DNA of 15,156 nucleotides from Rhodoferax sp. Its GTDB lineage: Bacteria > Pseudomonadota > Gammaproteobacteria > Burkholderiales > Burkholderiaceae_C. Within the stretch, counting starts at the first letter, position 1. Every line of letters begins with the position of its first letter. Positions 1,491 through 15,156 of the stretch are shown in pieces. The position numbers and the translations under genes were made by a program. Under the pieces are notes generated by a model. That model was not told the DNA's origin. It did not search any database and was given only the letters and a program-made list of their open reading frames with translations. The DNA lies in NCBI GenBank assembly GCA_021731215.1, contig JAKFXU010000156.1, positions 1 through 15,156 on the forward strand, in the 5' to 3' direction.

Positions 1491-2063
1491 AGCTGATAGG
1501 TACTGCGGCAAGACTCGACCGGTAGGCACTTCGAGGATGCCAGCCGTGGACGCGAATGGTCACGCATCCAAGCAGAACTTACGTTTTGTTGCGACATATC
1601 CTGGTCAGCCGACAAGATGCCTGATCTTTGACATATATTGGCACTTCACCAACTGCCCAGTAAAGACCGCATGCCAAAAACAACCAAAAACCAGTTCAAG
1701 AAATTGACTCAATTATTGGTCTTTCTCTAACTCATGACTGCCTCAGTGCTCAGCCTGCTGTTATCCAAGCGGCTTCTCGCACCGACCAGTCCTTGGCTGC
1801 CACCGGTCTCTTATTCTGCGGCTCGGCCAGAAACAAAACGGCGTGTGCTGGCGTGATGCCCTTTCATCTGCAAGCGCCCTGTGTTTAGCGGGTCAACTAA
1901 TTTCTTCGTTTCGCGAAGCAAAATTAACGGCAAACTTGCTTGCGATGGCTGTTGGTACGGTGTTTTTGTGGGCCCCTGGTGTGTCTTTGGCGCAGAGTGG
2001 CAACATGATGAATAGTGACGATAACATCGTCAGCGCGACTGAACAACCCTCTTGACCTTGAAA
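1491..2063. other. AT-richer, poorly coding gap between frd and the signalling operon
   Basis: This stretch of about 570 bases contains no recognisable gene. Hand counting gives about 43% G+C for 1561-1740, well below the flanking genes. It holds a 40-codon ATG ORF (1734-1856) of no recognisable family and the 70-codon ORF listed separately. TTGACA-like hexamers at 1628 and 1704 lack good -10 partners, so I do not call a promoter, although the promoter of the downstream operon is expected somewhere here. No oligo-T hairpin terminator for frd was found. The region may be decayed coding DNA or a long regulatory leader. Confidence 0.5.
1843..2055 (+). CDS. Possible small secreted protein or signal-peptide remnant
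   Basis: I do not recognise this ORF. Read from GTG at 1843 it has 70 codons; an ATG at 1945 would give 36 residues. Its distinctive feature is a hydrophobic stretch beginning LLAMAVGTVFLW and ending at an SLA-Q junction that resembles a signal peptidase I site, followed by a short polar tail of about 20 residues rich in N, S and D. The stop (TGA 2053-2055) overlaps a TTG codon at 2052 that is in frame with the large sensor gene, so it could be a translated leader for that gene. No convincing Shine-Dalgarno is present and the upstream half has poor coding character. It could equally be the stub of a lost periplasmic protein gene or a chance ORF. Confidence 0.25.
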   Translation: MCWRDALSSASALCLAGQLISSFREAKLTANLLAMAVGTVFLWAPGVSLAQSGNMMNSDDNIVSATEQPS

Positions 2064-5000
2064 ATGAACTTTCGTATCTTTCAGTGGCGATCTCTAATGA
2101 CAAGAGTGACCCTCTTCACACTGGCTATTTTCCTGGTCGGAATTTGGTCGCTGGCGTTCTACGCCAGCCGGATGCTGCGCGAGGATATGCAACGCCTGTT
2201 GGGCGAACAGCAACTCTCAACGGTATCTTTCATCGCCGCTGAGGTCAATGAGCAATTGGACAACCGGTTAAGGGCGCTGGAAAAAGTTGCCGCAAGCGTT
2301 AGCCCGGCCATGCTGGAGGATACCGCGGTCTTGCAGACATTCCTGGAACAGCGCCCGGCTCTTCAGGATCTGTTCAATGGTGGCACCTTCACCACCCGGC
2401 TTGATGGCACCGCGACTGCTTCCCTTCCGCTCTCGGCAGAACGGTTCGGTGTCAATTACATGGACAGAGATTACGTAGCCGCCACGCTCAACGAGGGGAA
2501 GGCGACGATCGGCCGGCCAGTCATAGGCAAGAGGCTATTGGCTCCTGTTTTCGTCATGGCGGCACCCATTCGCGATGCGCAGGGCAAGGTCATCGGTGTC
2601 TTGGCCGGTGTGACCAAACTGGGCATGCCCAATTTTCTGGACAAGATTACCAAAGGCAGCTACGGGAAGACTGGCGCCTATCTGCTGGCTGCGCCGCAGC
2701 ACAACCTGTTCGTCACCGCTTCCGACAAAAGCCGCATCATGCAGCCGCTACCCGCCCCCGGCATCAATCCGCTGCACGACAAGTTCGCGCAGGGCTTCGA
2801 GGGCTATGGCCTTCTTGTCAATTTCCGTGGCGAGCAAGAACTCGCTGCTGCCAAAAGCATCCCGGTGGCGGGCTGGTTTATGGGCATCGCGCTACCGACC
2901 GCCGAAGCCTTTGCTCCGATTCGCGCCATGCAGCAGCGCATGCTGCTAACCGCAATCTTTCTGACCTTGCTGGCGGGTGCACTGACCTGGTGGATGCTAA
3001 GACGCGAACTTGCACCGATGCTGGCGACCGCGAGAACGCTGGCCACCCTGTCGGATACCAACCAATCCCCGCAGCCCTTGCCCATCACCCGGCAAGACGA
3101 AATCGGCCAACTGATCGGCGGCTTCAATCGTCTGCTGGAAACCCTGGCGCAACGGGAAGACGCATTAAAAGAGAGCGAATTCCGCTGGAAATTCGCCATT
3201 GAAGGTTCCGGTGACGGCCTTTGGGATTGGAACATGGCCAACAACACCGTATTTTTCAGCAACCGCTGCAAGGCCATACTCGGCTTCGCCGAAGACGAGA
3301 TTGGAAATGGTCCGCAGGAATGGCAGAAACGCATCCACCCTGAGGACCAGGCCAACACCCACAGCACACTGCAGGACTATTTAGACGGCAAGACCTCAAG
3401 TTACTTCAGCGAACACCGGGTCTGCTGCAAGGATCGGAGCTACCAGTGGATACTCGAACGCGGCATGGTAGTCAGCCGCAGCGAGGACGGCAAACCCTTG
3501 CGCATGATCGGCACGCATACCGACATCAGCGCGCGCAAGCGGGCCGAAGACTTGCTGAAAACACAACAAACGCAGATCAAACTCGCCGCCCAGGTATTCG
3601 CACACGGCCGTGAAGGCATCACCATTTCCGATGCGCGGGGCCATATCGTCTTGGCCAACAAGGCCTTTACCGCGCTTAGCGGCTACACCGAGGCTGAGCT
3701 GCTGGGCAAGAACACGCGCATCCTGTCTTCCGGGCGGCACAGCCCGGAGTTCTACCGTGCCATGTGGGATGCCATCAACACCAAAGACTGCTGGGCCGGC
3801 GAAATCTGGGATCGCCGCAAAGATGGCACTGAGTACCCCGCGTGGCTGGCGATCTCGACCATGCGCGACGCGCAAGGGCAGATCACGCACTACATCGGCA
3901 ACTTCAGCGACCTGAGCGATGCGAAGGCCGCAGAAAATCGCATCCAGCGATTGTCCTATTTCGACGCCCTCACCGGCCTGCCCAACCGCGCCCTGCTGCA
4001 AGACCGCACCGCGCACGCCATCAGCATGATGCAGCGCGCCAGCGAACCCCTGACCATGATGCTGGTGGCCATTGACCATTTCAAGAGAATCACCGACACG
4101 CTGGGCCACAGCATCGGTGACGAGCTACTGGTGGAAATGGCCAAACGGCTCAGCGGCTCGGTGCGCGCCCAGGACACTGTGGCACGCTTGGGCGGCAAGG
4201 AATTTGTGCTGGTGCTGCCCAGCACTGCTTCGGACGGGGCGGCACACCTGGCCGCCGAACTGCTGCGGGAACTGGCTCAACCCTGCCAGTTGGGCGATCA
4301 CGCGCTAACAGTGACCGCTTCCATCGGCATCGCCAGTTACCCCGACAACGCAAGCGACTTTGACGCGCTGCTCAAGGCCGTCCAAATTGCCATGCACCGC
4401 GCGCAGGTCAGTGGGCGTGACACCTTCCAGTTCTACAGCGACGACATGTACCAGCAGGTGCGTGCACGCGACCATATGGTGAAGGCCTTGCGCCATGCGG
4501 CCACACTGGATCAGTTGCAACTGGCCTACCAGCCGCTGGTGGACTTGCAGACCGGACAGATCAGCGGCGTGGAAGCGCTGTTACGCTGGCAGCACCCCGA
4601 TCTGGGTGCGATCTCGCCGGTCCGGTTCATTCCCCTGGCCGAAGAGTTTGGCCTGATCAAGGGCATTGGCGAGTGGGTGTTCCGGCGCGCCTGTCGTGAC
4701 CTTCGCACCTGGCTGGGCAAGGGCATCCAAGTCCCGCACGTGGCCATCAATGTCTCACCCTTGCAGTTTCATGATGCCGATTTGATTGAGCAGGTGAAAA
4801 GCGCCCTCTCTGATTACCAAGTCGATCCCGCGCTTATTTACCTCGAAGTGACCGAGGGTGCACTCATGGATGATGTTCCCCGCAGCGAGGCCATGCTCAA
4901 AGAGCTCAAGAACTTGGGCGTGAAGCTTGCGCTGGACGACTTTGGCACCGGTTACTCATCACTGAGTTACCTCAAACGCTTTCCCTTTGACAAGGTCAAG

Positions 5001-6071
5001 ATCGACCAATCCTTTGTGCGGGACATCACCACCAGCCAGAGCGACGCCGTGATCGTGAAGGTGATCGTCGCCATGGCCCATGGTCTGGGTCTGAAGGTGA
5101 TCGCCGAAGGGGTAGAGACCGAAGCCCAGTGCGAGATCATGCGCACCAGCGGCTGTGACGAGATCCAGGGTTACTTCTTCTCCAGACCCATTCCTGCCCA
5201 GGCCATTGAAGAACTTTTTTCTGAGGGCCGGCAGTTGCCACTCCATCTGCTGCGCCTGCAAAAACCGCAACGCACCCTGCTGCTGGTCGATGATGAACCC
5301 AATATCGTGGCCGCGCTCAAACGCCTGTTCCGGCGCGATGGCCACACCATTTTGACTGCCAACAGCGGGGCCGAAGGCCTGGACGTGCTCTCCAGGCACA
5401 GGGTCGATGTCATCATCTCCGACCAGCGCATGCCGGGCATGACCGGCGTCGAGTTCCTGCGCGCCGCCAAAGTCCACTACCCCGACACCATTCGTATTGT
5501 CTTGTCTGGCTTCACCGAATTGCAATCCGTCACCGACGCCATCAACGAAGGGGCTATCTACCGCTTCCTTACCAAACCCTGGGAGGACGAACAACTGCGC
5601 GAGCACGTCAACAAGGCCTTTGAGTACAAGGAACTGCTGGATCAAAACCAGCAGCTCGACATCAAGGTTCGCACCACGAACCAGGAACTTGTGGCCGCCA
5701 ACCGGCAACTCGGTGACGTGCTGCAAAAGACGCACCACCAGATCGAACGTGACGAAGCCAGTCTGGCGATCGTGCGCGAAGCCTTGCAGCACGTCCCCGT
5801 GCCGGTCATTGGTGTGGACGATGAAGGTCTGATGGCCTTTGTCAACGCAGCCGCCGAGCATCTGTTCGCACGCGAAGGACCGCTGCTGGGCGTCGAGTTG
5901 GCCAACGCCCTGCCGACCATCGACGCAGCCATTGCGGTTGCAGCCGAAGGAGTACCCTACGCACTGCTGATTGAGGACACCAGCTATGATGTCAAGTGGA
6001 ACACCATGGGGGCAAACTCGCGATCTCGGGGCAGATTAGTGACTTTGACCAAGGCCGGACTGAATTCATGA
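2064..6071 (+). CDS. Membrane sensor: Cache-HAMP-PAS-PAS-degenerate GGDEF-EAL-REC-PAS, probable c-di-GMP phosphodiesterase
   Basis: This is a 1335-aa membrane sensor predicted to hydrolyse cyclic di-GMP. Domain order from ATG 2064: membrane helix 14-34, periplasmic Cache-like region about 40-285, helix 294-312, HAMP 312-366, PAS about 371-491, PAS about 505-626, GGDEF about 627-793, EAL about 815-1055, REC about 1070-1190, coiled coil, and a C-terminal PAS about 1233-1330. The EAL residues look complete: E837 (EALLRW), N896, E928, D958-D959 (DDFGTG), K979, E1015 and Q1035. The GGDEF signature is GGKEF (710-714), with A669 and T677 replacing usual metal and guanine ligands, so cyclase activity is unlikely; an RxxD inhibitory-site motif (R701-D704) is kept. 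REC has D1076, D1077, D1120, S1148 and K1171. Start alternatives are TTG 2052 and ATG 2097; none has a clear ribosome binding site. The stop overlaps the next gene (ATGA). Confidence 0.9.
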   Translation: MNFRIFQWRSLMTRVTLFTLAIFLVGIWSLAFYASRMLREDMQRLLGEQQLSTVSFIAAEVNEQLDNRLRALEKVAASVSPAMLEDTAVLQTFLEQRPALQDLFNGGTFTTRLDGTATASLPLSAERFGVNYMDRDYVAATLNEGKATIGRPVIGKRLLAPVFVMAAPIRDAQGKVIGVLAGVTKLGMPNFLDKITKGSYGKTGAYLLAAPQHNLFVTASDKSRIMQPLPAPGINPLHDKFAQGFEGYGLLVNFRGEQELAAAKSIPVAGWFMGIALPTAEAFAPIRAMQQRMLLTAIFLTLLAGALTWWMLRRELAPMLATARTLATLSDTNQSPQPLPITRQDEIGQLIGGFNRLLETLAQREDALKESEFRWKFAIEGSGDGLWDWNMANNTVFFSNRCKAILGFAEDEIGNGPQEWQKRIHPEDQANTHSTLQDYLDGKTSSYFSEHRVCCKDRSYQWILERGMVVSRSEDGKPLRMIGTHTDISARKRAEDLLKTQQTQIKLAAQVFAHGREGITISDARGHIVLANKAFTALSGYTEAELLGKNTRILSSGRHSPEFYRAMWDAINTKDCWAGEIWDRRKDGTEYPAWLAISTMRDAQGQITHYIGNFSDLSDAKAAENRIQRLSYFDALTGLPNRALLQDRTAHAISMMQRASEPLTMMLVAIDHFKRITDTLGHSIGDELLVEMAKRLSGSVRAQDTVARLGGKEFVLVLPSTASDGAAHLAAELLRELAQPCQLGDHALTVTASIGIASYPDNASDFDALLKAVQIAMHRAQVSGRDTFQFYSDDMYQQVRARDHMVKALRHAATLDQLQLAYQPLVDLQTGQISGVEALLRWQHPDLGAISPVRFIPLAEEFGLIKGIGEWVFRRACRDLRTWLGKGIQVPHVAINVSPLQFHDADLIEQVKSALSDYQVDPALIYLEVTEGALMDDVPRSEAMLKELKNLGVKLALDDFGTGYSSLSYLKRFPFDKVKIDQSFVRDITTSQSDAVIVKVIVAMAHGLGLKVIAEGVETEAQCEIMRTSGCDEIQGYFFSRPIPAQAIEELFSEGRQLPLHLLRLQKPQRTLLLVDDEPNIVAALKRLFRRDGHTILTANSGAEGLDVLSRHRVDVIISDQRMPGMTGVEFLRAAKVHYPDTIRIVLSGFTELQSVTDAINEGAIYRFLTKPWEDEQLREHVNKAFEYKELLDQNQQLDIKVRTTNQELVAANRQLGDVLQKTHHQIERDEASLAIVREALQHVPVPVIGVDDEGLMAFVNAAAEHLFAREGPLLGVELANALPTIDAAIAVAAEGVPYALLIEDTSYDVKWNTMGANSRSRGRLVTLTKAGLNS

Positions 6072-6400
6072 TCAACCAGGAACTTCATCTGAGGTTGGAG
6101 CACGCCAAGGCAGGCATGACGCTGGCGCGCGCCCTGATCGACACCAGAGGCGAGGTGTTGATGGCGCCGGGCATGGAACTGAGCGATGCCACTATTGCCG
6201 CCCTGCACCGGCGCAACGTCACGGAACTCTGGGTGCTCGATCTCCAGCCGCAAGCCGCTGACCCCAAGAACCAGGAGGCCGCGCTGCGCCAGCATCACCA
6301 CGGACGCCTGGCGCGATTGTTCCGGCATGTCAACGAAAGCCCGGATCATCGCTACCTACTCGATCTCATGACCCGCTACCGAGGGACCGAAGCGCCATGA
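6068..6400 (+). CDS. Small protein related to the C-terminal tail of the operon's HD-GYP protein
   Basis: This 110-aa soluble protein has no catalytic motif I can name. Its first 60 residues contain an AGMTLARALIDTRGEVLM segment that aligns with the tail of the REC-HD-GYP protein encoded by the last gene of this operon (VGMVLSRDLITPSGLLML); both are followed by a helix and a short strand. It is therefore best described as a stand-alone copy of an HD-GYP-associated accessory domain. Residues 75-110 are basic, with HHHGR and a predicted helix. ATG at 6068 overlaps the upstream stop (ATGA) and the stop overlaps the next start (ATGA), so it is translated as part of the chain. An extension of the frame to 5996 lies wholly inside the previous gene and is rejected. 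The role as an adaptor or regulatory domain is inference. Confidence 0.8.
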   Translation: MINQELHLRLEHAKAGMTLARALIDTRGEVLMAPGMELSDATIAALHRRNVTELWVLDLQPQAADPKNQEAALRQHHHGRLARLFRHVNESPDHRYLLDLMTRYRGTEAP

Positions 6401-7239
6401 ACGCCATCGTGCTGGACGAAGTCCTGCGAAGAATCCACAAGCTGCCGTCCCTGCCGACGGTGGTGATGGCGTTGCTGGCGAGCATGGACCAGGAAGAAGT
6501 CAACATCGATGCGCTGGCGCAAAAAATCGCACAAGACCAGGCACTGACAGCCAAAACGCTGCGACTGGCCAATTCCTCTTTCTACGGTATGGCGCACCAG
6601 GTCGCCACCATCCAGGAGGCCATCGCCATCCTGGGATTCAGAACCGTGCGCAGTCTGGCCTCCACCGCTGCCCTGATTGGCACCTTTGCCGGGAGCACGC
6701 ACACCCGTTTCGATGCCACCCCATTCTGGCGACACGCGATTGCGACGGCTGTTTGCGCCAGGGAACTGGCCGCCCACCTCAATTTGAATCCGGAGCACGC
6801 CTACTGCGCAGGGCTGCTGCACGACATTGGCCGACTGGTACTGGCCACCCTGTTCCAGCCCAATTACGAAGCCACCCTGGCTCACCGGGCACAGCACGAT
6901 TGCAACCTGCTCACCGCCGAGCAGACAGTGCTCGGCGTTGACCATGCGGCGGTTGGCCATGCGCTCACCCGGCATTGGAAGTTCCCCGAGGAATTGCAGC
7001 AAGCGGTGGCCGCTCACCATGCACCACTAGTTCAGGGCACGCATCGGCTGTCAATGGTCATTCTGGCAGCCGACGCCATTGCACACGCGCTCGACCTGTC
7101 GATGGACCAGGACGACCTGGTGCCGCCTGTTCCCATCGGCCTGTGGCAGCAACTCGGACTGGATGACAACGCACTGCTGGAGGTATTTAACAACACCGAA
7201 AAGCAATTTGCGGGTGCCAGCCTCGTGTTGAACACCTGA
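6397..7239 (+). CDS. HDOD domain protein
   Basis: This 280-aa cytoplasmic protein is a single HDOD domain, a class related to HD phosphohydrolases that usually acts as a signalling or scaffolding module rather than an enzyme. Typical features are the N-terminal LPSLPTVV segment (16-23), DQALTAKTLRLANSSFYG (47-64), an ILGFRTVRSLA block (78-88) and LLHDIGRLVL (140-149). Histidines that could still form a metal site remain: H113, H142-D143, H183 and H207-H208, so residual HD chemistry cannot be excluded. It begins with ATG overlapping the stop of the 110-aa gene and ends 13 bases before the kinase gene. The operon setting suggests it works with c-di-GMP enzymes and the kinase; its exact partner is unknown. 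Confidence 0.9.
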   Translation: MNAIVLDEVLRRIHKLPSLPTVVMALLASMDQEEVNIDALAQKIAQDQALTAKTLRLANSSFYGMAHQVATIQEAIAILGFRTVRSLASTAALIGTFAGSTHTRFDATPFWRHAIATAVCARELAAHLNLNPEHAYCAGLLHDIGRLVLATLFQPNYEATLAHRAQHDCNLLTAEQTVLGVDHAAVGHALTRHWKFPEELQQAVAAHHAPLVQGTHRLSMVILAADAIAHALDLSMDQDDLVPPVPIGLWQQLGLDDNALLEVFNNTEKQFAGASLVLNT

Positions 7240-7252
7240 AGGAGAAAAATCC

Positions 7253-8722
7253 ATGACCGAACCCAAGCAGGCAAGCACCATGGCAGCACAAGGTCTTGCT
7301 GGCGTGGAGCAGGCCGATTTTTTTGATGGCAGTCCGGTCGCCATGTTCGTCATCGACTCGGACCATATCGTTACCCACTTCAACAAGGCGTGCGAAAACC
7401 TGCTGGGGGTGACGGCCGCCAACATGATCGGCGAGCGCAAGCTCGGCCAGGTCTTTTATGGCCACGACCGGCCGGTCATGGCCGACCTGATTGTCGACCA
7501 GACCTCCTGCGAGGAGTGGGCGAGTCTGTACGCGGACCGGCCCCACCGATCACAACTTATCGCCGACGCCTACGAGACCGAAGGGTTCTTTCCTAACCTT
7601 GGCGACGACGGACGCTGGCTGTTCTTCACCGCCACGCCTTTGCGCAATGCCGATGGATCAATTGCAGGTGCGGTCGAAACTCTGCAAGACATCACCGACC
7701 GAAAACGTGCAGAAGAGGCGCTACGCAAGTACCAGAATGCCCTCGAAGAGCTGATCGAGAAGCGCACCATTGAGTTGGCTCAAGCCAACCGCACACTTTT
7801 GAAAGACGTTGTCCGGCGCGAGGCCGCCGAAGCCGCCCTGATGAGCCGCAATACAGAATTGAACGAGCTCAACGCCAAGCTGAGCATGGCGCAAGAGCAC
7901 TTGGTTCAGTCGGAAAAACTCGCCTCCATTGGCCAGTTGGCAGCCGGTGTTGCGCACGAAATCAACAATCCGGTTGGCTACATCTTCTCCAACTTCGGCA
8001 CGCTGGAAAAGTACCTTGCCGACCTCTTTCGGATGCTGGGCGCCTACGAAAAGGTGGAAAATCGTCACAGCGATGCCCAGACCCTGTCCGAGCTTGTGAC
8101 CTTGAGAAAAGAGATCGAACTCGACTTTCTCAAGGAGGACATTCCGACCCTGATGCGCGAATCCAAGGAGGGCATCGTGCGGGTGCGAAAAATCGTGCAG
8201 GATTTGAAGGATTTTTCGCATGTGGACACCAACCCGGATTGGCAGTTCGCCAACCTGAACCAGGGCATCGACTCCACGCTCAACGTGATCAACAACGAGT
8301 TGAAATACAAGGCCGATGTGGTGAAGGAATACGGTGATATTCCCGAGGTGCAATGCATGCCCTCACAGATCAACCAGGTGGTGATGAACCTGATGACCAA
8401 CGCCGCCCACGCCATCGGGCCTGAGCGCGGCAAGATCACGGTACGCACCGGGGTCGAAGAGGACAGGGTGTGGTTCGAAGTGGCCGACAGCGGCAGTGGC
8501 ATCCAGAAAGACGTGCTGCCGCGCATTTTTGACCCCTTCTACACCACCAAGCCGATCGGCAAGGGCACCGGCCTGGGGCTGTCGCTGTCTTATGGCATCA
8601 TCCAAAAACACCACGGCCGTGTCGGCGTACAGACCGAACTGGGCAAGGGCACCACGTTTCGCGTCACCCTGCCCATCAGGCAGCCGGCCACACCAGCCGC
8701 CAACGGAGCCAATCCCACATGA
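7253..8722 (+). CDS. Soluble PAS-domain sensor histidine kinase
   Basis: This 489-aa kinase has no predicted membrane segment, so it should sense a cytoplasmic signal. A PAS domain spans about 20-150, ending in the usual DITDRKRAEEAL exit helix, and is followed by a coiled coil (about 150-220). HisKA follows with phosphoacceptor H235 in AHEINNPVGY; its two helices are separated by a long insert. The HATPase_c domain has N383 (N box), D412-G416 (DSGSGI), an FDPFYTT F-box (427-433) and GKGTGLGL (436-443). All catalytic boxes look intact. A clear ribosome binding site, AAGGAGA at 7240-7246, precedes ATG 7253. The stop overlaps the start of the REC-HD-GYP gene, so that protein is the most likely phosphotransfer partner, with the REC of the large EAL protein as a second candidate. 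Confidence 0.94.
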   Translation: MTEPKQASTMAAQGLAGVEQADFFDGSPVAMFVIDSDHIVTHFNKACENLLGVTAANMIGERKLGQVFYGHDRPVMADLIVDQTSCEEWASLYADRPHRSQLIADAYETEGFFPNLGDDGRWLFFTATPLRNADGSIAGAVETLQDITDRKRAEEALRKYQNALEELIEKRTIELAQANRTLLKDVVRREAAEAALMSRNTELNELNAKLSMAQEHLVQSEKLASIGQLAAGVAHEINNPVGYIFSNFGTLEKYLADLFRMLGAYEKVENRHSDAQTLSELVTLRKEIELDFLKEDIPTLMRESKEGIVRVRKIVQDLKDFSHVDTNPDWQFANLNQGIDSTLNVINNELKYKADVVKEYGDIPEVQCMPSQINQVVMNLMTNAAHAIGPERGKITVRTGVEEDRVWFEVADSGSGIQKDVLPRIFDPFYTTKPIGKGTGLGLSLSYGIIQKHHGRVGVQTELGKGTTFRVTLPIRQPATPAANGANPT

Positions 8723-10065
8723 CTGACGCCAGTGCCGCAGCCGACAACAGCGATGAAAAACTGCCCACGATTCTGTGCGTCGACGACGAGCCCAATATCT
8801 TGGCTTCACTGCGGCGTCTGTTTCGCGCCAAGGGCTTCCAGGTGCACGTGGCCGAGGGCGGCCAAGCCGCATTGGCGTTGCTGGAGAGCGAAACCGTTGA
8901 CCTCGTGATTTCCGACATGCGCATGCCGGAGATGGATGGCGCACAGTTTCTGGCCCAGGTGCGCGCACGCTGGCCCGACACCGTGCGCCTGTTGCTGACC
9001 GGCCACTCCGACATCAGCGCCATCATCGACGCCATCAACCGCGGTGAAATCTACCGCTACATCACCAAGCCGTGGGACGACCACGACATTGTGCTGATCG
9101 TGCGCCAGGCGCTTGAACGCAAAGCGCTGGAACTGGAAAAGAAGCGGCTCGAAGCCCTGACCCTGCGCCAGAACGAGAAGCTCAAGGCCCTCAACGCCAG
9201 CCTGGAGGCCAAGGTCGAGGCGCGCACCGCCGAACTCAGGGTCGCCAATGAATCACTGCAAAGCGCCAACGAGAAGCTCAAGACCAATTTCATCACCTCG
9301 ATCAAGGTGTTCTCCACCCTGATCGAAATGCGCGGCGGCAAGCTGGCCGGGCACTCGCGCCGCGTCGCCGATCTTTCACGGCGCATTGCCTTGAAACTGC
9401 AGCTCGACAGCCGGCAGGTGCAAGAAATCTTTGTCGCCGGCCTGCTGCACGAAATTGGCAAGGTCGGCTTTGCCGACGAATTGCTCAGCACCCCGGTGGC
9501 CATGATGAAACCGCCCCAGATGGAGGCTTACCGCAAACATGCGGCGCAGGCCGAACAACTGCTGCTGCCGCTGCAAGACTTGAGAGCCGCATCGGAGATC
9601 ATCAGCGCACAGTTTGAACGCTTCGACGGCACCGGCTTCCCGCAACAACTGTCGGCGGACGCGATACCTATCGGCACCCGGATTTTGACGCTGGCCAGCG
9701 ATTACGACAGTATGCAAATTGGCACTTTGACGCCAAGCCACCTCAGCCCGGAAGAAGCCCGGATCATCATCGTCCACAGCAGCGGCAAACGCTATGACCC
9801 TGAAGTGGTGAATGCATTCGTTGACTTGCTCAGCGACACATCACGCAAGCAAGCTGAGAAGGAACGGCCCGCTGAAATAGCGCTGCCCGCCCGTGAACTG
9901 CAAGTCGGCATGGTGCTGTCGCGCGACCTGATCACACCCAGTGGCTTGTTAATGCTGTCGGCGGAGCATGTATTGGATGAACGCATCATCAGCCGGATCA
10001 TCAGTTTCGAGCGATCAGGCAACCTGCAACTAAGCGTCTACATTTACCAGAATCAAAAAATTTAA
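8719..10065 (+). CDS. Response regulator with REC and divergent HD-GYP domain
   Basis: This 448-aa response regulator resembles RpfG-type proteins: REC (about 16-130; D22, D23, phospho-acceptor D66, T94, K117), a coiled coil (about 133-190), then an HD-GYP domain (about 195-375). Intact HD-GYP domains degrade c-di-GMP with a metal site. Here the motifs are altered: H212 (GHSRRV) and H274 are present, but HD is H244-E245, HHE is Q298-F299-E300 and GYP is G306-F307-P308. Catalysis may therefore be weak or lost and the domain could act as a binding or docking module. Residues about 388-448 form an extra tail similar to the 110-aa protein of the same operon. The start overlaps the kinase stop (ATGA), making the kinase the likely phosphodonor. 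It is the last gene, ending 26 bases from a convergent gene. Confidence 0.92.
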   Translation: MTDASAAADNSDEKLPTILCVDDEPNILASLRRLFRAKGFQVHVAEGGQAALALLESETVDLVISDMRMPEMDGAQFLAQVRARWPDTVRLLLTGHSDISAIIDAINRGEIYRYITKPWDDHDIVLIVRQALERKALELEKKRLEALTLRQNEKLKALNASLEAKVEARTAELRVANESLQSANEKLKTNFITSIKVFSTLIEMRGGKLAGHSRRVADLSRRIALKLQLDSRQVQEIFVAGLLHEIGKVGFADELLSTPVAMMKPPQMEAYRKHAAQAEQLLLPLQDLRAASEIISAQFERFDGTGFPQQLSADAIPIGTRILTLASDYDSMQIGTLTPSHLSPEEARIIIVHSSGKRYDPEVVNAFVDLLSDTSRKQAEKERPAEIALPARELQVGMVLSRDLITPSGLLMLSAEHVLDERIISRIISFERSGNLQLSVYIYQNQKI

Positions 10066-10091: not shown

Positions 10092-12320
10092 TCATTGCGG
10101 TCCTAGTACACGCAGCAGTTCTTCCAGCGTTGTCAATCCATTCTTGACCTTTTCGTAAGCGTCCTCACGGAGTGTTACGAATCCGTTCTCCCGCGCATAC
10201 CGCGCGATTTCCGTGATGGCCATTTGACTGGCAATCATGTGACGCAGATGGTCGTCCAGAGCCAACACCTCGTACAGGCCGATCCGGCCCTTGTAACCCG
10301 TGCCGAAACATGCCTGGCAACCAGCGCCCTTGAAAGTTGGCATCGTGGCACCGGCAAAGCGCCCCCCCAATCGCAGCAGCAAGCTTGCGTCGGGTACTTC
10401 TTCCGTGCTGCAATGCACACAGATTTTGCGCACCAGGCGTTGCGCAATGATCGCTTCGAGGGCGGTTGCGACGACGAATGGCTTGAGTCCCAGATCAAAC
10501 AGGCGGGAAATGGTCGCCAGCGCCGAGTTCGTGTGCAAGGTTGAGAATACCTGGTGCCCCGTGAGTGCTGCATGGAAGGCAACTTCGGCAGTTTCCAGAT
10601 CCCGGATTTCCCCAACCAGGAGCACATCGGGGTCTTGCCGCAGGATCGCGCGCAAGATGATGGGAAAGGTCATTCCGATTTTTTCGCGCACCAGAACCTG
10701 GCCTGCGCTATCAAGATAATATTCGATCGGATCTTCGATGGTGATGTAGTTCTTGTCCGGCGTTGCACTGCTTTGCAAGAGACTGTACAAAGTGGTGGTT
10801 TTGCCGCTGCCAGTCGGCCCGGTTGCCAGCACGATGCCTTGCGGCTTCTCGCTTGCATGGCGGATTTTGGCGAGATCGGCTGCCGAAAAGCCGAGTACCT
10901 GCAGGCTCAGTACGGCAGAATTTCGGTCAAGAACGCGCATCACGATCTTTTCGCCATTGACCGTGGGCAAGGTGGAGATGCGCAAGTCGACGATGCGCTG
11001 CGGCGTCTTCACGGAAAGGCGTCCATCCTGCGGCCGGCGCCGTTCCGAAATATCGAGTTCGGCCATCACCTTGATACGCGACACCAGGGACTGATGCATG
11101 TTGTGCGGGATCTGGATCTTGTCGACCAGTACGCCGTCGATGCGCAAGCGCACCATGATGTTCTTGGCGCGCGGTTGAATATGAATGTCGGAGGCGCCCA
11201 GCCGGATCGCCTCCAGCAGGATCGAATTGACCAGTCGTATGGCCGGCGGCTCGTCGGTTCCTTGCAGCAACTCTTCCAGCGACGCCCGTTCCGCATCGTC
11301 GTCTATAAAAATCTCGATGCCCTCGTAGGGATCGGAGGAGCCAATCAAGGTCACCAGATCTGCCAGATCGGTCAAACCGACTCGATAGACTTCCGCGATC
11401 TTGGCTTTGATCGCTGCGATAGAAGCCAGTACCGGCACCACCTCCAGTCCGGTAACAAAGCGCAGATCATCGAGCAAGCCACGGTCGAGCGGATCCGCCA
11501 TGGCCAGCGTCAAGCGCTTGTTGTCGGTCTTGAGCGGCATGACGATTTGCTGCTGACACAGCGTAGCCGGCACCAGTGCTGCTACCGACACGTCCACGCT
11601 GAACTCATCGAGGCTCACCTGCTGGATCATCAGCTCCTTGCCGATCAAGTCGTGGATGGCTTGCTCGGCCAGCCAGCCGCGCTCGACGATCAGCTTGATC
11701 ATCGGTTCTTTGCGCGATTGCTGCTGCAGTCTGACCAGTTCCTGCACTTGCAGATGGGTGAGCAAGCCGCGCTTGTTGAGCAAGATGGCCAATTGGCTAT
11801 GACTGGTAACACTGAATTTGGCGAGCTTCTCGATCTCCTTCGTTTGCTCCTGGTTGGCGCGTTGCAAATCGCTGTTTTTCTGCAACAGCTCGAACTGCTG
11901 CAGCGCCAACGCCACCGTGACGCGCAGGTCGTCATCGTTCCAGGGTTTGAGTATGAACTTGTAGACGGCACCGGCTTTCATCGCGCTGATTACGGCGTTG
12001 ACGTCGGCGTGGCCTGTCAACATGATGCGGATCATGCCGGGATAAAGCGCGCGCGCTTGCTTGAGCAGTTCGCCGCCATTCATGCCGGGCATCATGTAGT
12101 CGCTGATGATGACCTGGAAGGATTTCGCTGCCAACAGATCGAGCGCCTGCTTCGGTTCATTGCAGGTGACGATTTCATAGTTCTCTTGACGGAAGATGCG
12201 CTTAAGCGCCGCCAATACATTGGGCTCGTCATCCACCAGCAAGATCCGGTACGGCGTGACAATAGAAGCCGGTTGATCGGTCGGCGCCTGATCTCCGGTG
12301 AAGAGATGTCCGTAGCTCAT
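10092..12320 (-). CDS. REC-MshEN-PilB/GspE-type fusion ATPase
   Basis: This 742-aa protein fuses a response-regulator receiver to a type II secretion/type IV pilus assembly ATPase. REC covers about 24-140 (D30, D31, phospho-acceptor D74, T102, K125). An MshEN/T2SSE_N-like region covers about 170-310, then the motor: Walker A GPTGSGKTT (501-509), Asp box ITIEDPIE (526-533), Walker B LLVGEIRD (567-574), His box TGHQVFSTLHT (587-597), and zinc-type cysteines C634, C637, C668 and C671. The motor motifs are complete and are of the extension-type (PilB/GspE) class rather than PilT, because the tetracysteine and N-domain are present. No pilus or secretion structural gene is in the window. The start codon has no Shine-Dalgarno, lies 18 bases beyond the kinase stop and is in the same frame. 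It likely depends on translation of the kinase gene, whose product is its probable phosphodonor. Confidence 0.93.
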   Translation of the reverse strand: MSYGHLFTGDQAPTDQPASIVTPYRILLVDDEPNVLAALKRIFRQENYEIVTCNEPKQALDLLAAKSFQVIISDYMMPGMNGGELLKQARALYPGMIRIMLTGHADVNAVISAMKAGAVYKFILKPWNDDDLRVTVALALQQFELLQKNSDLQRANQEQTKEIEKLAKFSVTSHSQLAILLNKRGLLTHLQVQELVRLQQQSRKEPMIKLIVERGWLAEQAIHDLIGKELMIQQVSLDEFSVDVSVAALVPATLCQQQIVMPLKTDNKRLTLAMADPLDRGLLDDLRFVTGLEVVPVLASIAAIKAKIAEVYRVGLTDLADLVTLIGSSDPYEGIEIFIDDDAERASLEELLQGTDEPPAIRLVNSILLEAIRLGASDIHIQPRAKNIMVRLRIDGVLVDKIQIPHNMHQSLVSRIKVMAELDISERRRPQDGRLSVKTPQRIVDLRISTLPTVNGEKIVMRVLDRNSAVLSLQVLGFSAADLAKIRHASEKPQGIVLATGPTGSGKTTTLYSLLQSSATPDKNYITIEDPIEYYLDSAGQVLVREKIGMTFPIILRAILRQDPDVLLVGEIRDLETAEVAFHAALTGHQVFSTLHTNSALATISRLFDLGLKPFVVATALEAIIAQRLVRKICVHCSTEEVPDASLLLRLGGRFAGATMPTFKGAGCQACFGTGYKGRIGLYEVLALDDHLRHMIASQMAITEIARYARENGFVTLREDAYEKVKNGLTTLEELLRVLGPQ

Positions 12321-12338
12321 GTTGCGGCCAATGGTGCG

Positions 12339-13568
12339 TCAGGGGGTTTGGGCGTCTTGTATCGTCGGCAGGTAAACCGTGAAGGTGCTGCCAACACCTT
12401 GCGTACTGTCGACATCGATGCGTCCGCCGTGCGACACAGCAATGTCGCACGCGACCGTCAGACCCAGTCCCATCCCTTTGCCGATTTCCCTGGTGGTAAA
12501 AAACGGATCGAAAATTCGGGTCAGGAGGTCGGCCGCGATACCGCAGCCATTATCGGCAATCACGATCTGGATCTGGTTGCCTACCAGGCTGGTGGCGATG
12601 TGGATCAAACCTTCGCCTTGAATTGCCTGCACCGCATTCTGCAGTATCGACAGCAGCATTTGATTGATGCGGCTCTGGTCGCACACGATGGCGGGCAGCG
12701 GCTGCAGGTCGAAAGCGAGCGCGATGGGTAATTGGGGGGCTGCGATGTCGACAACCGCACGCAGGGCATCGTTAATATCCATTGGCGTCAACATGGCGCA
12801 ATCGAGACTCGCGTATTTTTTCAGATTCGCGACGATGCGCGCCACGCGGTCGGCGCCGGCCACCGATTCGGTCAACAGCCCAGGGAAATCCTGCAACACA
12901 AAATCCAGGTCGGCATTTTTCCAGAGCTGCGTCGCGCTGTTAATGTCCCCTATGCGGTAGGCGCTCAATATGGGCTGCATCTTATTGACGTATTCCAGGG
13001 CGCTGGCCAGATTGCTGCGGATGAAGCCGATCGGATTGTTGATCTCATGCGCCATACCGGCAGCCAGACTGCCGACCGAAGCCAGTTTTTCGGACTGGTA
13101 AAGCTGGCGTTGAGCCCGTTCGATCACGTCCACCTGCTGCTTGACGCGCTGCTCCAGTTGCGCGGACAGTTCGCGGTAACGGGTTTCCGATTCCTGTAGT
13201 GCAGCATGCTTTTTCTGTAACGCTTCAAAGTCGGAGTTGACCGCTTCGATATGCAGGTCGGCTGCCATTTGATAACGATAAGCGCCCGCCAGCACCAGCT
13301 CCAGCCAGGCAGCAGCAGCCGCGGCTGCTTCGCCCGGCACATCAGACGCCAACAACTTGCCTACGACATCGATATCGCAGTGCAGCGGTATCGATATCGC
13401 CGCGCCGCAAACACCCGACAGCGAAGTGCGCACCGCCTTGCCGTCGAGATCAGCCAGCTGCCATTGGGCACCGAGCAGCTTGCTCAAGGCAGCGTCCAGC
13501 CGGGTGCCGGACACGCCGCGCAATAATTCCGCGAGCGTTAAATCGCGGTCGAATTGGGGCGCCTTCAT
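12339..13568 (-). CDS. Soluble sensor histidine kinase paired with REC-ATPase
   Basis: This is a 409-aa cytoplasmic histidine kinase. Residues 1-100 form a small domain I cannot assign, possibly GAF-like, containing a run of seven alanines (81-87). A long coiled coil (about 105-160) leads into HisKA with phosphoacceptor H174 in AHEINNPIGF. HATPase_c carries N311 (N box), DNGCGI (339-344), FDPFFTT (353-359) and GKGMGLGL (363-370), all intact. The transmitter closely resembles that of the PAS kinase in the facing operon (shared SEKLAS.G.LAAG.AHEINNP). ATG at 13566-13568 overlaps the stop of the GTPase gene (ATGA) and has AGGA at 13574-13577, so the two are translationally coupled. Its TGA is followed by C and lies in frame with the REC-ATPase gene. 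The co-encoded GTPase may be an input or output of the kinase; that is inference. Confidence 0.93.
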   Translation of the reverse strand: MKAPQFDRDLTLAELLRGVSGTRLDAALSKLLGAQWQLADLDGKAVRTSLSGVCGAAISIPLHCDIDVVGKLLASDVPGEAAAAAAAWLELVLAGAYRYQMAADLHIEAVNSDFEALQKKHAALQESETRYRELSAQLEQRVKQQVDVIERAQRQLYQSEKLASVGSLAAGMAHEINNPIGFIRSNLASALEYVNKMQPILSAYRIGDINSATQLWKNADLDFVLQDFPGLLTESVAGADRVARIVANLKKYASLDCAMLTPMDINDALRAVVDIAAPQLPIALAFDLQPLPAIVCDQSRINQMLLSILQNAVQAIQGEGLIHIATSLVGNQIQIVIADNGCGIAADLLTRIFDPFFTTREIGKGMGLGLTVACDIAVSHGGRIDVDSTQGVGSTFTVYLPTIQDAQTP

Positions 13569-14215
13569 GCTGTTCCTGCGACCGCAGCGATGAAGGTCTG
13601 ACGCGTCAAGCCGTGCACGCGGTCAAGAGAAAATTGACGGTCGAGATTGGCGTAGACGCGACCGAGCAAGGTGTTGAACGTGTCGAGCACACCGCTGCCT
13701 TCCAGTGCCGAGGCAAAAGTAAGCGGCCAAGGCGCACTCGACCAGCGGGCGTCGATTTCCTCTTCTGTCAGGATGTCGCTTAGGTCGCGCTTGTTGAATT
13801 GCACCACCAGCGGCAACGTGGCCAAATCCAGGCCAACCAGCGGCGCGTTGCTTATAAGATTCTCGAAAGAGCTGCCATTGTTCATGGCTTGCTTGCGTTG
13901 CGAATCAGCGACAAAGACCACGCCATCGGTGCGCGACAGTACCGCTTTACGCGTGCCGTCATGCGCCACTTGACCCGGCACCGTGAAAACCTTGAACTTG
14001 ACCAACAATCCCGACGGCGCGGTAAATCCCAATGGGAGCAGATCAAAGAACAAGGTGCGGTCGCCTTCGGTTTCCAGCGTCATCATGTCGCCGATCAGTT
14101 CCGGCGCCAGCAAGTCGTGCAGTCGTGTCAAGTTGGTGGTCTTTCCGGACAAAGCAGGCCCGTAGTAGACGATTTTCACGGTCAAGCGATTGAGTCGTTC
14201 GTCCAGTTCAGCCAT
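13565..14215 (-). CDS. MglA-like Ras-superfamily small GTPase
   Basis: This 216-aa protein belongs to the MglA family of bacterial small GTPases, which set cell polarity and control type IV pili or gliding in Myxococcus. Residues that can be matched to my recollection of M. xanthus MglA fall at identical numbers: KIVYYGP (14-20), P-loop G19-T27, R53-T54 in DRTLFFD, T78 and Q82 in TVPGQ, then VFVADSQ (100-106) and NKRD (141-144). One difference is A21 where M. xanthus has G21 (the Ras G12 position). The C-terminus is about 20 residues longer than MglA. No MglB/Roadblock GAP gene is in the window. It is the first gene of a three-gene operon with a kinase and a REC-ATPase. The start ATG 14213-14215 has only a weak, distant AAAGG, but no better start exists. 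Confidence 0.9.
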   Translation of the reverse strand: MAELDERLNRLTVKIVYYGPALSGKTTNLTRLHDLLAPELIGDMMTLETEGDRTLFFDLLPLGFTAPSGLLVKFKVFTVPGQVAHDGTRKAVLSRTDGVVFVADSQRKQAMNNGSSFENLISNAPLVGLDLATLPLVVQFNKRDLSDILTEEEIDARWSSAPWPLTFASALEGSGVLDTFNTLLGRVYANLDRQFSLDRVHGLTRQTFIAAVAGTA

Positions 14216-14430: not shown

Positions 14431-15156
14431 TCAGGAGCGTCGGCGTGGTTTTTTGCCTTTGTCCTTGCCCTTGACTGCCGCCGGTCTGGCGACCGCCTTC
14501 ACCGACTGAACGGCAGATTTTGGCGCCCGGTCCGAAGGCTCTGTCATTTTGTCTTTGCCAAGGGGTGGGCCCAGTCCTTCGCCCTCCTGCAGCAGCCGGA
14601 AATCGATGCGCCGGCCATCCAGGTCAACCCGGCTAACCTGCACCCGCACGCGCGAGCCAATGGCGTAACGCAGACCGGTGCGCTCGCCGCGCAGCTCCTG
14701 GCGTGCCTCGTCAAAGCGGAAATACTCGCCACCGAGTTCGGTGATGTGCACCAGCCCTTCGACATACATGGCGTCGAGCGTGACGAAAATGCCAAAGCTC
14801 GTCACCGAGCTGACCACGCCGCTGTATTCCTCGCCCAGGTGCTCGCGCATGTACTTGCACTTGAGCCAGGCCTCGACATCGCGACTGGCTTCGTCGGCAC
14901 GGCGTTCGTTGGCGCTGCAATGCATGCCGGCGGCCTGCCAGGCCTGGGTCTCCAGGCTCAACTTCTTGGGCTTGTGCCCGGGCTCGGCGACGCGCGCGGC
15001 CAGCCCTTTTTCCAGCCGGCGCGACAGTTTGGCGTGCGCTTCGCCCGGGATCGGCAGCAGTGGCAACTGGTACTTGGTCTTGGCCAGAATCGCCTTGATG
15101 ACGCGGTGCACCAGCAGATCGGGGTAACGCCGGATCGGACTGGTGAAATGGGTGTA
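14431..15156 (-). CDS. rnr: Ribonuclease R, C-terminal part (runs off the right edge)
   Basis: This is the last 241 codons of an RNase R (VacB) gene, a 3'-to-5' exoribonuclease that degrades structured RNA; the 5' part lies beyond 15156. The first visible residues, YTHFTSPIRRYPDLLVHR, are the RNB-family signature at the end of the catalytic domain. An S1 RNA-binding domain follows (SGVVSSVTSFGIFVTLD ... VEGLVHITEL), then a lysine/arginine-rich tail ending KGKKPRRRS, as is usual for RNase R and not RNase II. The internal GTG at 15109-15111 is not a start, because the frame is open and conserved upstream of it. The stop is 215 bases from the GTPase start codon on the same strand, and the intervening DNA holds an apparent separate promoter, so the two are probably independent transcripts. 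Confidence 0.95.
   Translation of the reverse strand, partial: YTHFTSPIRRYPDLLVHRVIKAILAKTKYQLPLLPIPGEAHAKLSRRLEKGLAARVAEPGHKPKKLSLETQAWQAAGMHCSANERRADEASRDVEAWLKCKYMREHLGEEYSGVVSSVTSFGIFVTLDAMYVEGLVHITELGGEYFRFDEARQELRGERTGLRYAIGSRVRVQVSRVDLDGRRIDFRLLQEGEGLGPPLGKDKMTEPSDRAPKSAVQSVKAVARPAAVKGKDKGKKPRRRS

Follow-up and report, generated by a model that had tools for sequence, protein, structure and literature searches.

What does it mean for a polarity-type GTPase to be encoded together with a histidine kinase and a motor ATPase of the kind that assembles pili? The question is raised by a stretch of 15,156 nucleotides from Rhodoferax sp. (contig JAKFXU010000156.1; the whole analysed stretch is hereafter the window). 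Its minus strand carries a gene for an MglA-type small GTPase (13565..14215, 216 aa), one for a histidine kinase (12339..13568, 409 aa) and one for an ATPase of PilB/GspE class, in which a receiver domain (REC) and an MshEN-like domain precede the T2SSE catalytic domain (10092..12320, 742 aa), all delimited from the list of open reading frames. Apart from the MshEN-like domain, these identities had been proposed in an earlier note made from the sequence alone, and were borne out by phmmer for the GTPase and by Pfam for the kinase and the ATPase. Here, we found this triad to be a conserved unit. We read it, tentatively and with somewhat less than even confidence, as a phosphorylation-gated extra extension motor that would act on a shared type IV pilus platform, most likely of type IVa, with the GTPase gating or placing either the kinase or the motor.

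Conservation of the three-gene unit

Within the window, the stop of the GTPase gene and the start of the kinase gene overlap by 4 bp (13565..13568), and the ATPase gene begins 18 bp past the end of the kinase gene. Relatives of the ATPase were sought in one genome per species across 84,980 species, and the best 80 of the 325 stretches encoding such relatives were kept. These 80 relatives are 59-80% identical to the window's ATPase and come, by their titles, from beta- and gammaproteobacteria, among them species of Zoogloea, Dechloromonas, Azonexus, Aromatoleum and Janthinobacterium. By a scripted check, GTPase, kinase and ATPase genes are contiguous on one strand at 75 of the 80 loci, the median gap being -4 bp at each junction (ranges -17 to 92 and -8 to 1019, the start codons behind these figures being approximations), and we infer that the three genes are translationally coupled. 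Four of the five remaining loci (L030, L031, L071 and L079) reach a contig end, and the fifth (L041) holds all three genes, with one open reading frame start miscalled.

Because this set of loci had been picked by the ATPase, the converse test was led by the GTPase, in partly overlapping samples from the order (200 genomes), the phylum (398) and the class (369), each of which includes the window's own genome. A threshold of at least 50% identity yielded orthologues in 24 other genomes; weak matches of 26-31% identity were left out (G043, G250, G599, G605, G638, G742, G819, G841 and G845). Of these 24, 21 have an intact triad, namely 12 of 12 in the order, three of four in the phylum and six of eight in the class, where intact means, for the order sample, a kinase with an adjacent long T2SSE frame, the receiver being presumed in nine of the 12, whose frames have at least 743 aa. 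In one of the exceptions (G562), GTPase and kinase genes are followed in the motor slot by a gene for a REC-PAS-GGDEF-EAL-REC protein (L116 3607-6816), and none of the three T2SSE genes of that genome adjoins the pair. In another (G896), what is left is fragments of the GTPase and the ATPase's final 80 residues, separated by 148 bp, a layout suggestive of a single deletion across the rest of the triad, and the third (G609) retains a lone GTPase remnant. Together, the intact cases and these exceptions indicate that the triad is mostly kept or lost as a whole. Its distribution is patchy, the GTPase being absent from all 11 species of the window's family that are listed in the phylum sample. Conservation beyond the genome of origin, on which the earlier note had made its proposal depend, was thus found by both searches. 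As a side observation, triad remnants at L165 7549-8233 and L164 7478-7969 both lie beside a similar regulator cluster.

Features of the ATPase, kinase and GTPase

To the window's proteins we aligned relatives from the 80 loci of the ATPase search, giving sets of 81 ATPases, 77 kinases and 76 GTPases; the features below all lie on the minus strand. The ATPase matches Response_reg (8e-26), MshEN (1e-20) and T2SSE (4e-129) in Pfam. Its receiver (residues 26-136, 11913..12245) has the acceptor aspartate D74 (12099..12101), which together with D30, T102 and K125 is invariant in 81/81 sequences, while D31 is kept in 80/81. The catalytic domain (residues 355-737, 10110..11258) has an intact Walker A motif, Asp box, GEIRD motif, His box and four cysteines, and across the alignment GPTGSGKT, EDP, GEIRD, STLHTN and the four cysteines are invariant (81/81), so that the former description of the protein as an assembly motor holds at the level of sequence. 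Ahead of the receiver stands a short motif, Y..LFTG (residues 3-9, F7 conserved in 80/81), which is possibly a docking peptide.

Between receiver and catalytic domain, the MshEN-like N domain (11379..11798), which the earlier note had omitted, bears a degenerate motif for cyclic di-GMP (c-di-GMP). This motif consists of two RLGxx...LxxxLxxQ copies, and changing the first glycine is reported to have abolished binding in MshE (PMC5013675). With the register taken from the PilB alignment, the glycine position of the second copy is Ile, Leu, Val or Phe in 81/81 ATPases and glycine in none, its arginine has become proline in 77/81 and its glutamine Glu or Asp in 79/81, so that RLG reads P-x-I/L/V/F in most. 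The first copy is mixed (Gln 52, Arg 29; Ala 42, Gly 37). From this degeneracy in every sequence, c-di-GMP binding by the ATPase would be expected to be weak or none, to which the caution given in the same source applies, that imperfect MshEN motifs can still bind the nucleotide (PMC5013675).

The kinase matches HATPase_c (7e-23; 12363..12680) and, short of the family cut-off, HisKA (0.00026). Its phospho-acceptor H174 (13047..13049), within AHEINNP, is invariant in 77/77 kinases, as are N311, D339, G343 and G363/365/367/369 of the other boxes (H, N and G boxes). The N-terminal domain (13194..13535) belongs to no Pfam family and is predicted to consist of a GAF/roadblock-like fold with a long helix after it. 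A fold search with the whole kinase returned kinase cores among the matches listed, and the protein is apparently cytosolic, no transmembrane segment being seen by eye. Kinase alignments A1 and A3 took 65 and 57 of the 77 available sequences, and 4 of the 30 roadblock loci of the comparison set yielded no usable segment.

The GTPase aligns with the MglA structures of M. xanthus and T. thermophilus (phmmer E 3.7e-41 to 4.9e-39). It has a P-loop, GPALSGKT (14138..14161), and, invariant in 76/76 sequences, both residues of R53-T54 (14054..14059), where the arginine occupies the intrinsic finger position beside the G2 threonine, and the G3 motif TVPGQ (13970..13984). Arginine beside the G2 threonine and TVPGQ are the features by which Group 1 MglA is defined (Wuichet and Sogaard-Andersen, PMC4316618), and since the match to this definition is exact, its signature places the GTPase in Group 1. 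No match to an MglB-type protein (roadblock/LC7, PF03259) was found in the window's own genome, which is 84.7% complete, or in 15 of the 16 other GTPase carriers from the order and phylum samples, the sixteenth giving one match of 34 positions and 24 bits. As a control, 378 genomes of the phylum were searched for the family, and 51 of them have it. By likeness to SofG and MglA, a role for the GTPase in location or switching is plausible. None of the three proteins appears, from its residues, to be a degenerate copy.

Surrounding cluster and pilus platforms

The triad is flanked on the plus strand by four genes identified by Pfam, for a Cache-PAS-GGDEF-EAL-REC protein (2052..6071), an HDOD protein (6397..7239), a PAS-histidine kinase (HK2, 7253..8722) and a REC-HD-GYP protein (8719..10065), the last being convergent with the triad in the window. 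The REC-HD-GYP gene is present at 52 of the 80 loci, at 43 of them directly upstream of the triad and on the same strand, and a further cluster-related gene, mostly for a kinase, lies downstream of the ATPase gene at 28. Across 87 loci, the recurrent families were, by crude gene calling, ATPase, kinases, receiver proteins and GTPase, and rarely HDOD. The earlier note had spoken of a compact module. This stands for the three-gene core and is incomplete for the locus, as the triad often sits inside a larger cluster of several kinases and receivers; likewise, its inventory was right for the three genes and passed over the plus-strand neighbours, which are of the same conserved neighbourhood. Its statement that pilus structural genes are absent was upheld, in that Pfam found none among eight of the window's proteins (positions 1-2000 and the RNase R end being named by eye only) and no pilus family recurs across the 87 loci by the same gene calling. 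Upstream of the triad, on the minus strand, the window ends in a gene named by eye as RNase R (stop at 14431).

A seemingly empty gap of roughly 570 bp before the GTPase gene in relatives proved to be a gene for a free-standing response regulator whose C-terminal tail is conserved, present at nine of nine loci read and at 53 of 87 by tblastn (e.g. L078 5576-6139). In many relatives it stands between the REC-HD-GYP and GTPase genes, with the tail pattern PGITxVxWxxDG at 46 loci; in the window it does not adjoin the triad. The motif AHEINNPxG[FY]xxSN is common to both kinase types of the cluster, and the ATPase, HD-GYP and GGDEF-EAL proteins have receivers with the consensus DDEPx[IV][LV]x[AS]LxR. 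The contact positions that reportedly govern kinase-receiver specificity in HK853-RR468 work are almost invariant among the kinases. Since the contact faces are so alike, cross-phosphorylation within the cluster is plausible.

Three further observations concern the window's copies of the companion proteins. The HD-GYP protein has HE where 46 of 53 sequences have Asp second, and it is without two later histidines, for which reasons this copy is possibly inactive. By eye, the GGDEF-EAL-REC protein has GGKEF for GGDEF and keeps the EAL motif, and may thus act as a phosphodiesterase. An open reading frame of 134 aa (5996-6400) has no Pfam match; judged by eye, it is similar to the C-terminal part of the REC-HD-GYP protein, with the pattern GM-LARDL...G-LL.

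With regard to platforms, the window's own genome (507 contigs) holds pilB, pilC and pilD together, with PilM also present; pilC is its clear platform, and a further partial T2SSF match lies on C289. Its other T2SSE genes look like PilT/PilU (by size only), a Tad ATPase, a PilT-like gene at a contig end and a second orphan PilB-like ATPase. A PilC/GspF-type (T2SSF) platform and PilM, both away from the triad, were found in 13 of 13 genomes tested (this genome and 12 of the order sample). Manual reading of three carriers gave two platforms and four extension-type ATPases in G145, four and six in G111, and four and eight in G182 (T2SSE matches below 1e-100). Each of these platforms has its own neighbouring ATPase and the REC-ATPase adjoins none, so that it shares a platform or uses none. 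The type IVa pilus, the most widespread candidate, would most likely be the platform concerned.

A tree of ATPase cores was built with 29 rows, comprising the window's protein, ten of its 80 relatives and other ATPases from 22 stretches, four of which gave no sequence (L126, L130, L139 and L140). The REC family forms one clade (support 100/100), apart from PilB and the other groups, with the backbone unresolved; MSH-type, GspE-like and GAF-type are our own labels for groups in this tree. Further PilB/GspE-like ATPases without a platform fall in its orphan and GAF-type groups (L015 324-2156, L123, L137, L134 and L103), and an ATPase in Massilia frigida, whose start resembles that of the orphan group, is encoded some 4 kb away from the triad.

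Mechanism, alternatives and known systems

The invariant histidine and aspartate and the intact ATPase motifs are in keeping with direct control of the motor by phosphorylation. In the mechanism that we tentatively favour, phosphate would pass from H174 of the kinase to D74 of the ATPase receiver, and the phosphorylated receiver would alter the N-terminal ring of the hexamer, replacing the decayed c-di-GMP input. The motor would then dock, as an alternative to the housekeeping PilB, on a pilus platform encoded elsewhere, most likely of type IVa. The GTPase, having no MglB, would bind the kinase N-terminal domain or the motor and so set place or timing, comparable to SofG and MglA with PilB in Myxococcus, and the D74 receiver may also take input from further kinases encoded in the adjoining cluster. 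A more specific version, which we hold to be doubtful, would make the kinase N-terminal domain the built-in effector or GTPase-activating protein (GAP) of an MglB-less MglA, the GTP state being relayed through the kinase to the motor receiver, and a c-di-GMP-free motor competing with the housekeeping PilB for the type IV platform.

Several results weigh against the mechanism that we favour. The ATPase misses the cut-offs of the PilB equivalog (TIGR02538; 562.2 bits, cut-off 675.65) and of the GspE equivalog (TIGR02533; 546.3 bits, cut-off 630.25), and platform assignment by ATPase phylogeny failed, the REC family joining neither PilB nor any platform type. PilM occurs in 191 of the 200 genomes of the order, most of them without the triad. 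Its presence therefore hardly discriminates, which ruled out marker co-occurrence as a guide to the platform, and the triad is accessory at best. Four PilM-bearing members of the window's own family (G049, G093, G133 and G171) have no such GTPase, so the triad is unnecessary for pili of this kind. The motor swap in G562, finally, implies that the motor is dispensable to the GTPase-kinase pair.

Two alternatives leave the phosphorylation switch in place and change what it acts upon. The motor may serve another platform, whether an MSH-like pilus, a type II secretion system or more than one of these, with phosphorylation and GTPase gating unchanged. In keeping with this, the identity of its core to each of the 18 other extension-type ATPases in the comparison, including PilB, is 37-49%, one carrier (G145) holds what by eye is an MSH-like locus, and no platform stands next to the REC-ATPase; however, the clear platform of the window's own genome is pilC beside pilB and pilD, and the remaining platforms in G145, G111 and G182 are each provided with an ATPase, which leaves this alternative rather unlikely in our view. 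The REC-ATPase might instead be a regulator that joins PilB in mixed hexamers or sits on the platform, its block being released or imposed by phosphorylation. Its status as an extra, platform-less paralogue in three closely read carriers would suit such a role, but catalytic and zinc residues that are invariant in 81/81 sequences would be needless in a pure decoy, and we regard it as distinctly unlikely.

A different view is that kinase and GTPase form the real module, with the GTPase as output in the manner proposed for the actinobacterial conservon (PMC4316618), and that the downstream REC protein is exchangeable and fed by the phosphoryl pool of the cluster. The GGDEF-EAL-REC gene in the ATPase slot of G562 and the likely contact faces common to the cluster's kinases and receivers both speak for it. 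As this swap is seen in just one of the 24 GTPase-led genomes and the ATPase is present in 21, we give it little credence. It is very improbable, lastly, that three signalling genes without functional link have become neighbours by chance: two-component gene clusters are common and easily shuffled, but here order, strand and overlaps persist in beta- and gammaproteobacteria with ATPase identities of 59-80%, and the remnants suggest loss as a block.

The components of the triad are already known; their three-gene wiring appears to be new. No published description of a GTPase-kinase-REC-ATPase operon was found among titles and abstract openings of the open-access literature. In the main text of a 2024 review on PilB control, the words 'receiver', 'MglA' and 'GTPase' do not occur (PMC11656802), and the accessible text of the GTPase survey, in which Group 1 MglA neighbourhoods vary, describes no such triad (PMC4316618). 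The closest circuits are those of Myxococcus xanthus, where SofG, an orphan MglA, is reported to position PilB and PilT (PMC4316618) and MglA-GTP with SgmX to bring PilB to the pole (PMC7519303). The MglA/MglB/RomR-SgmX and SofG systems likewise place a Group 1 MglA and a pilus extension ATPase within a common control circuit, which in the case of MglA also includes a receiver protein (PMC4316618, PMC7519303, PMC6428892). That receiver, RomR, is a protein distinct from the motor, and MglB serves there as the GAP of MglA. In the triad, by contrast, receiver and motor form one chain, a kinase gene lies between the GTPase and motor genes, and no MglB was found. The actinobacterial conservon (kinase CvnA, roadblock protein CvnB, CvnC and GTPase CvnD) also has a kinase and an MglA-family GTPase in one operon (PMC4316618). 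The Group 2 GTPase and CvnB roadblock protein that mark a conservon (Cvn) are wanting in the triad, which has a Group 1 signature, no roadblock protein in its own genome and a receiver-motor that conservons lack.

Receiver-bearing proteins that act on extension ATPases are known as well. PixE is a PATAN-REC regulator of PilB1 in Synechocystis (PMC7690835), and FimX, whose REC domain is without the acceptor aspartate, acts on PilB in Pseudomonas and Xanthomonas (PMC11656802). PixE, other PATAN-REC proteins and FimX are separate proteins that bind PilB, whereas the receiver of the triad sits within the ATPase chain and has the phosphorylation residues. ATPases of the MshE type, which bind c-di-GMP, have the same MshEN and T2SSE domains; here the c-di-GMP motif is degenerate and a receiver has been added in front. 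For the kinase, the nearest NCBIfam family is that of the 'T2SS_HK' kinases (NF038348), its best match, which at 208 bits falls far short of the family cut-off of 450.

Reported control of pilus extension motors runs, as far as the accessible sources go, through separate PilB-binding proteins or c-di-GMP. The conserved residues of the triad suggest that cells may be able to switch a pilus motor on directly by phosphorylation, and such control would become testable with three purified proteins. The triad would, moreover, show how MglA works without MglB, and it would present an MshEN-type motor whose c-di-GMP input may have given way to phosphorylation.

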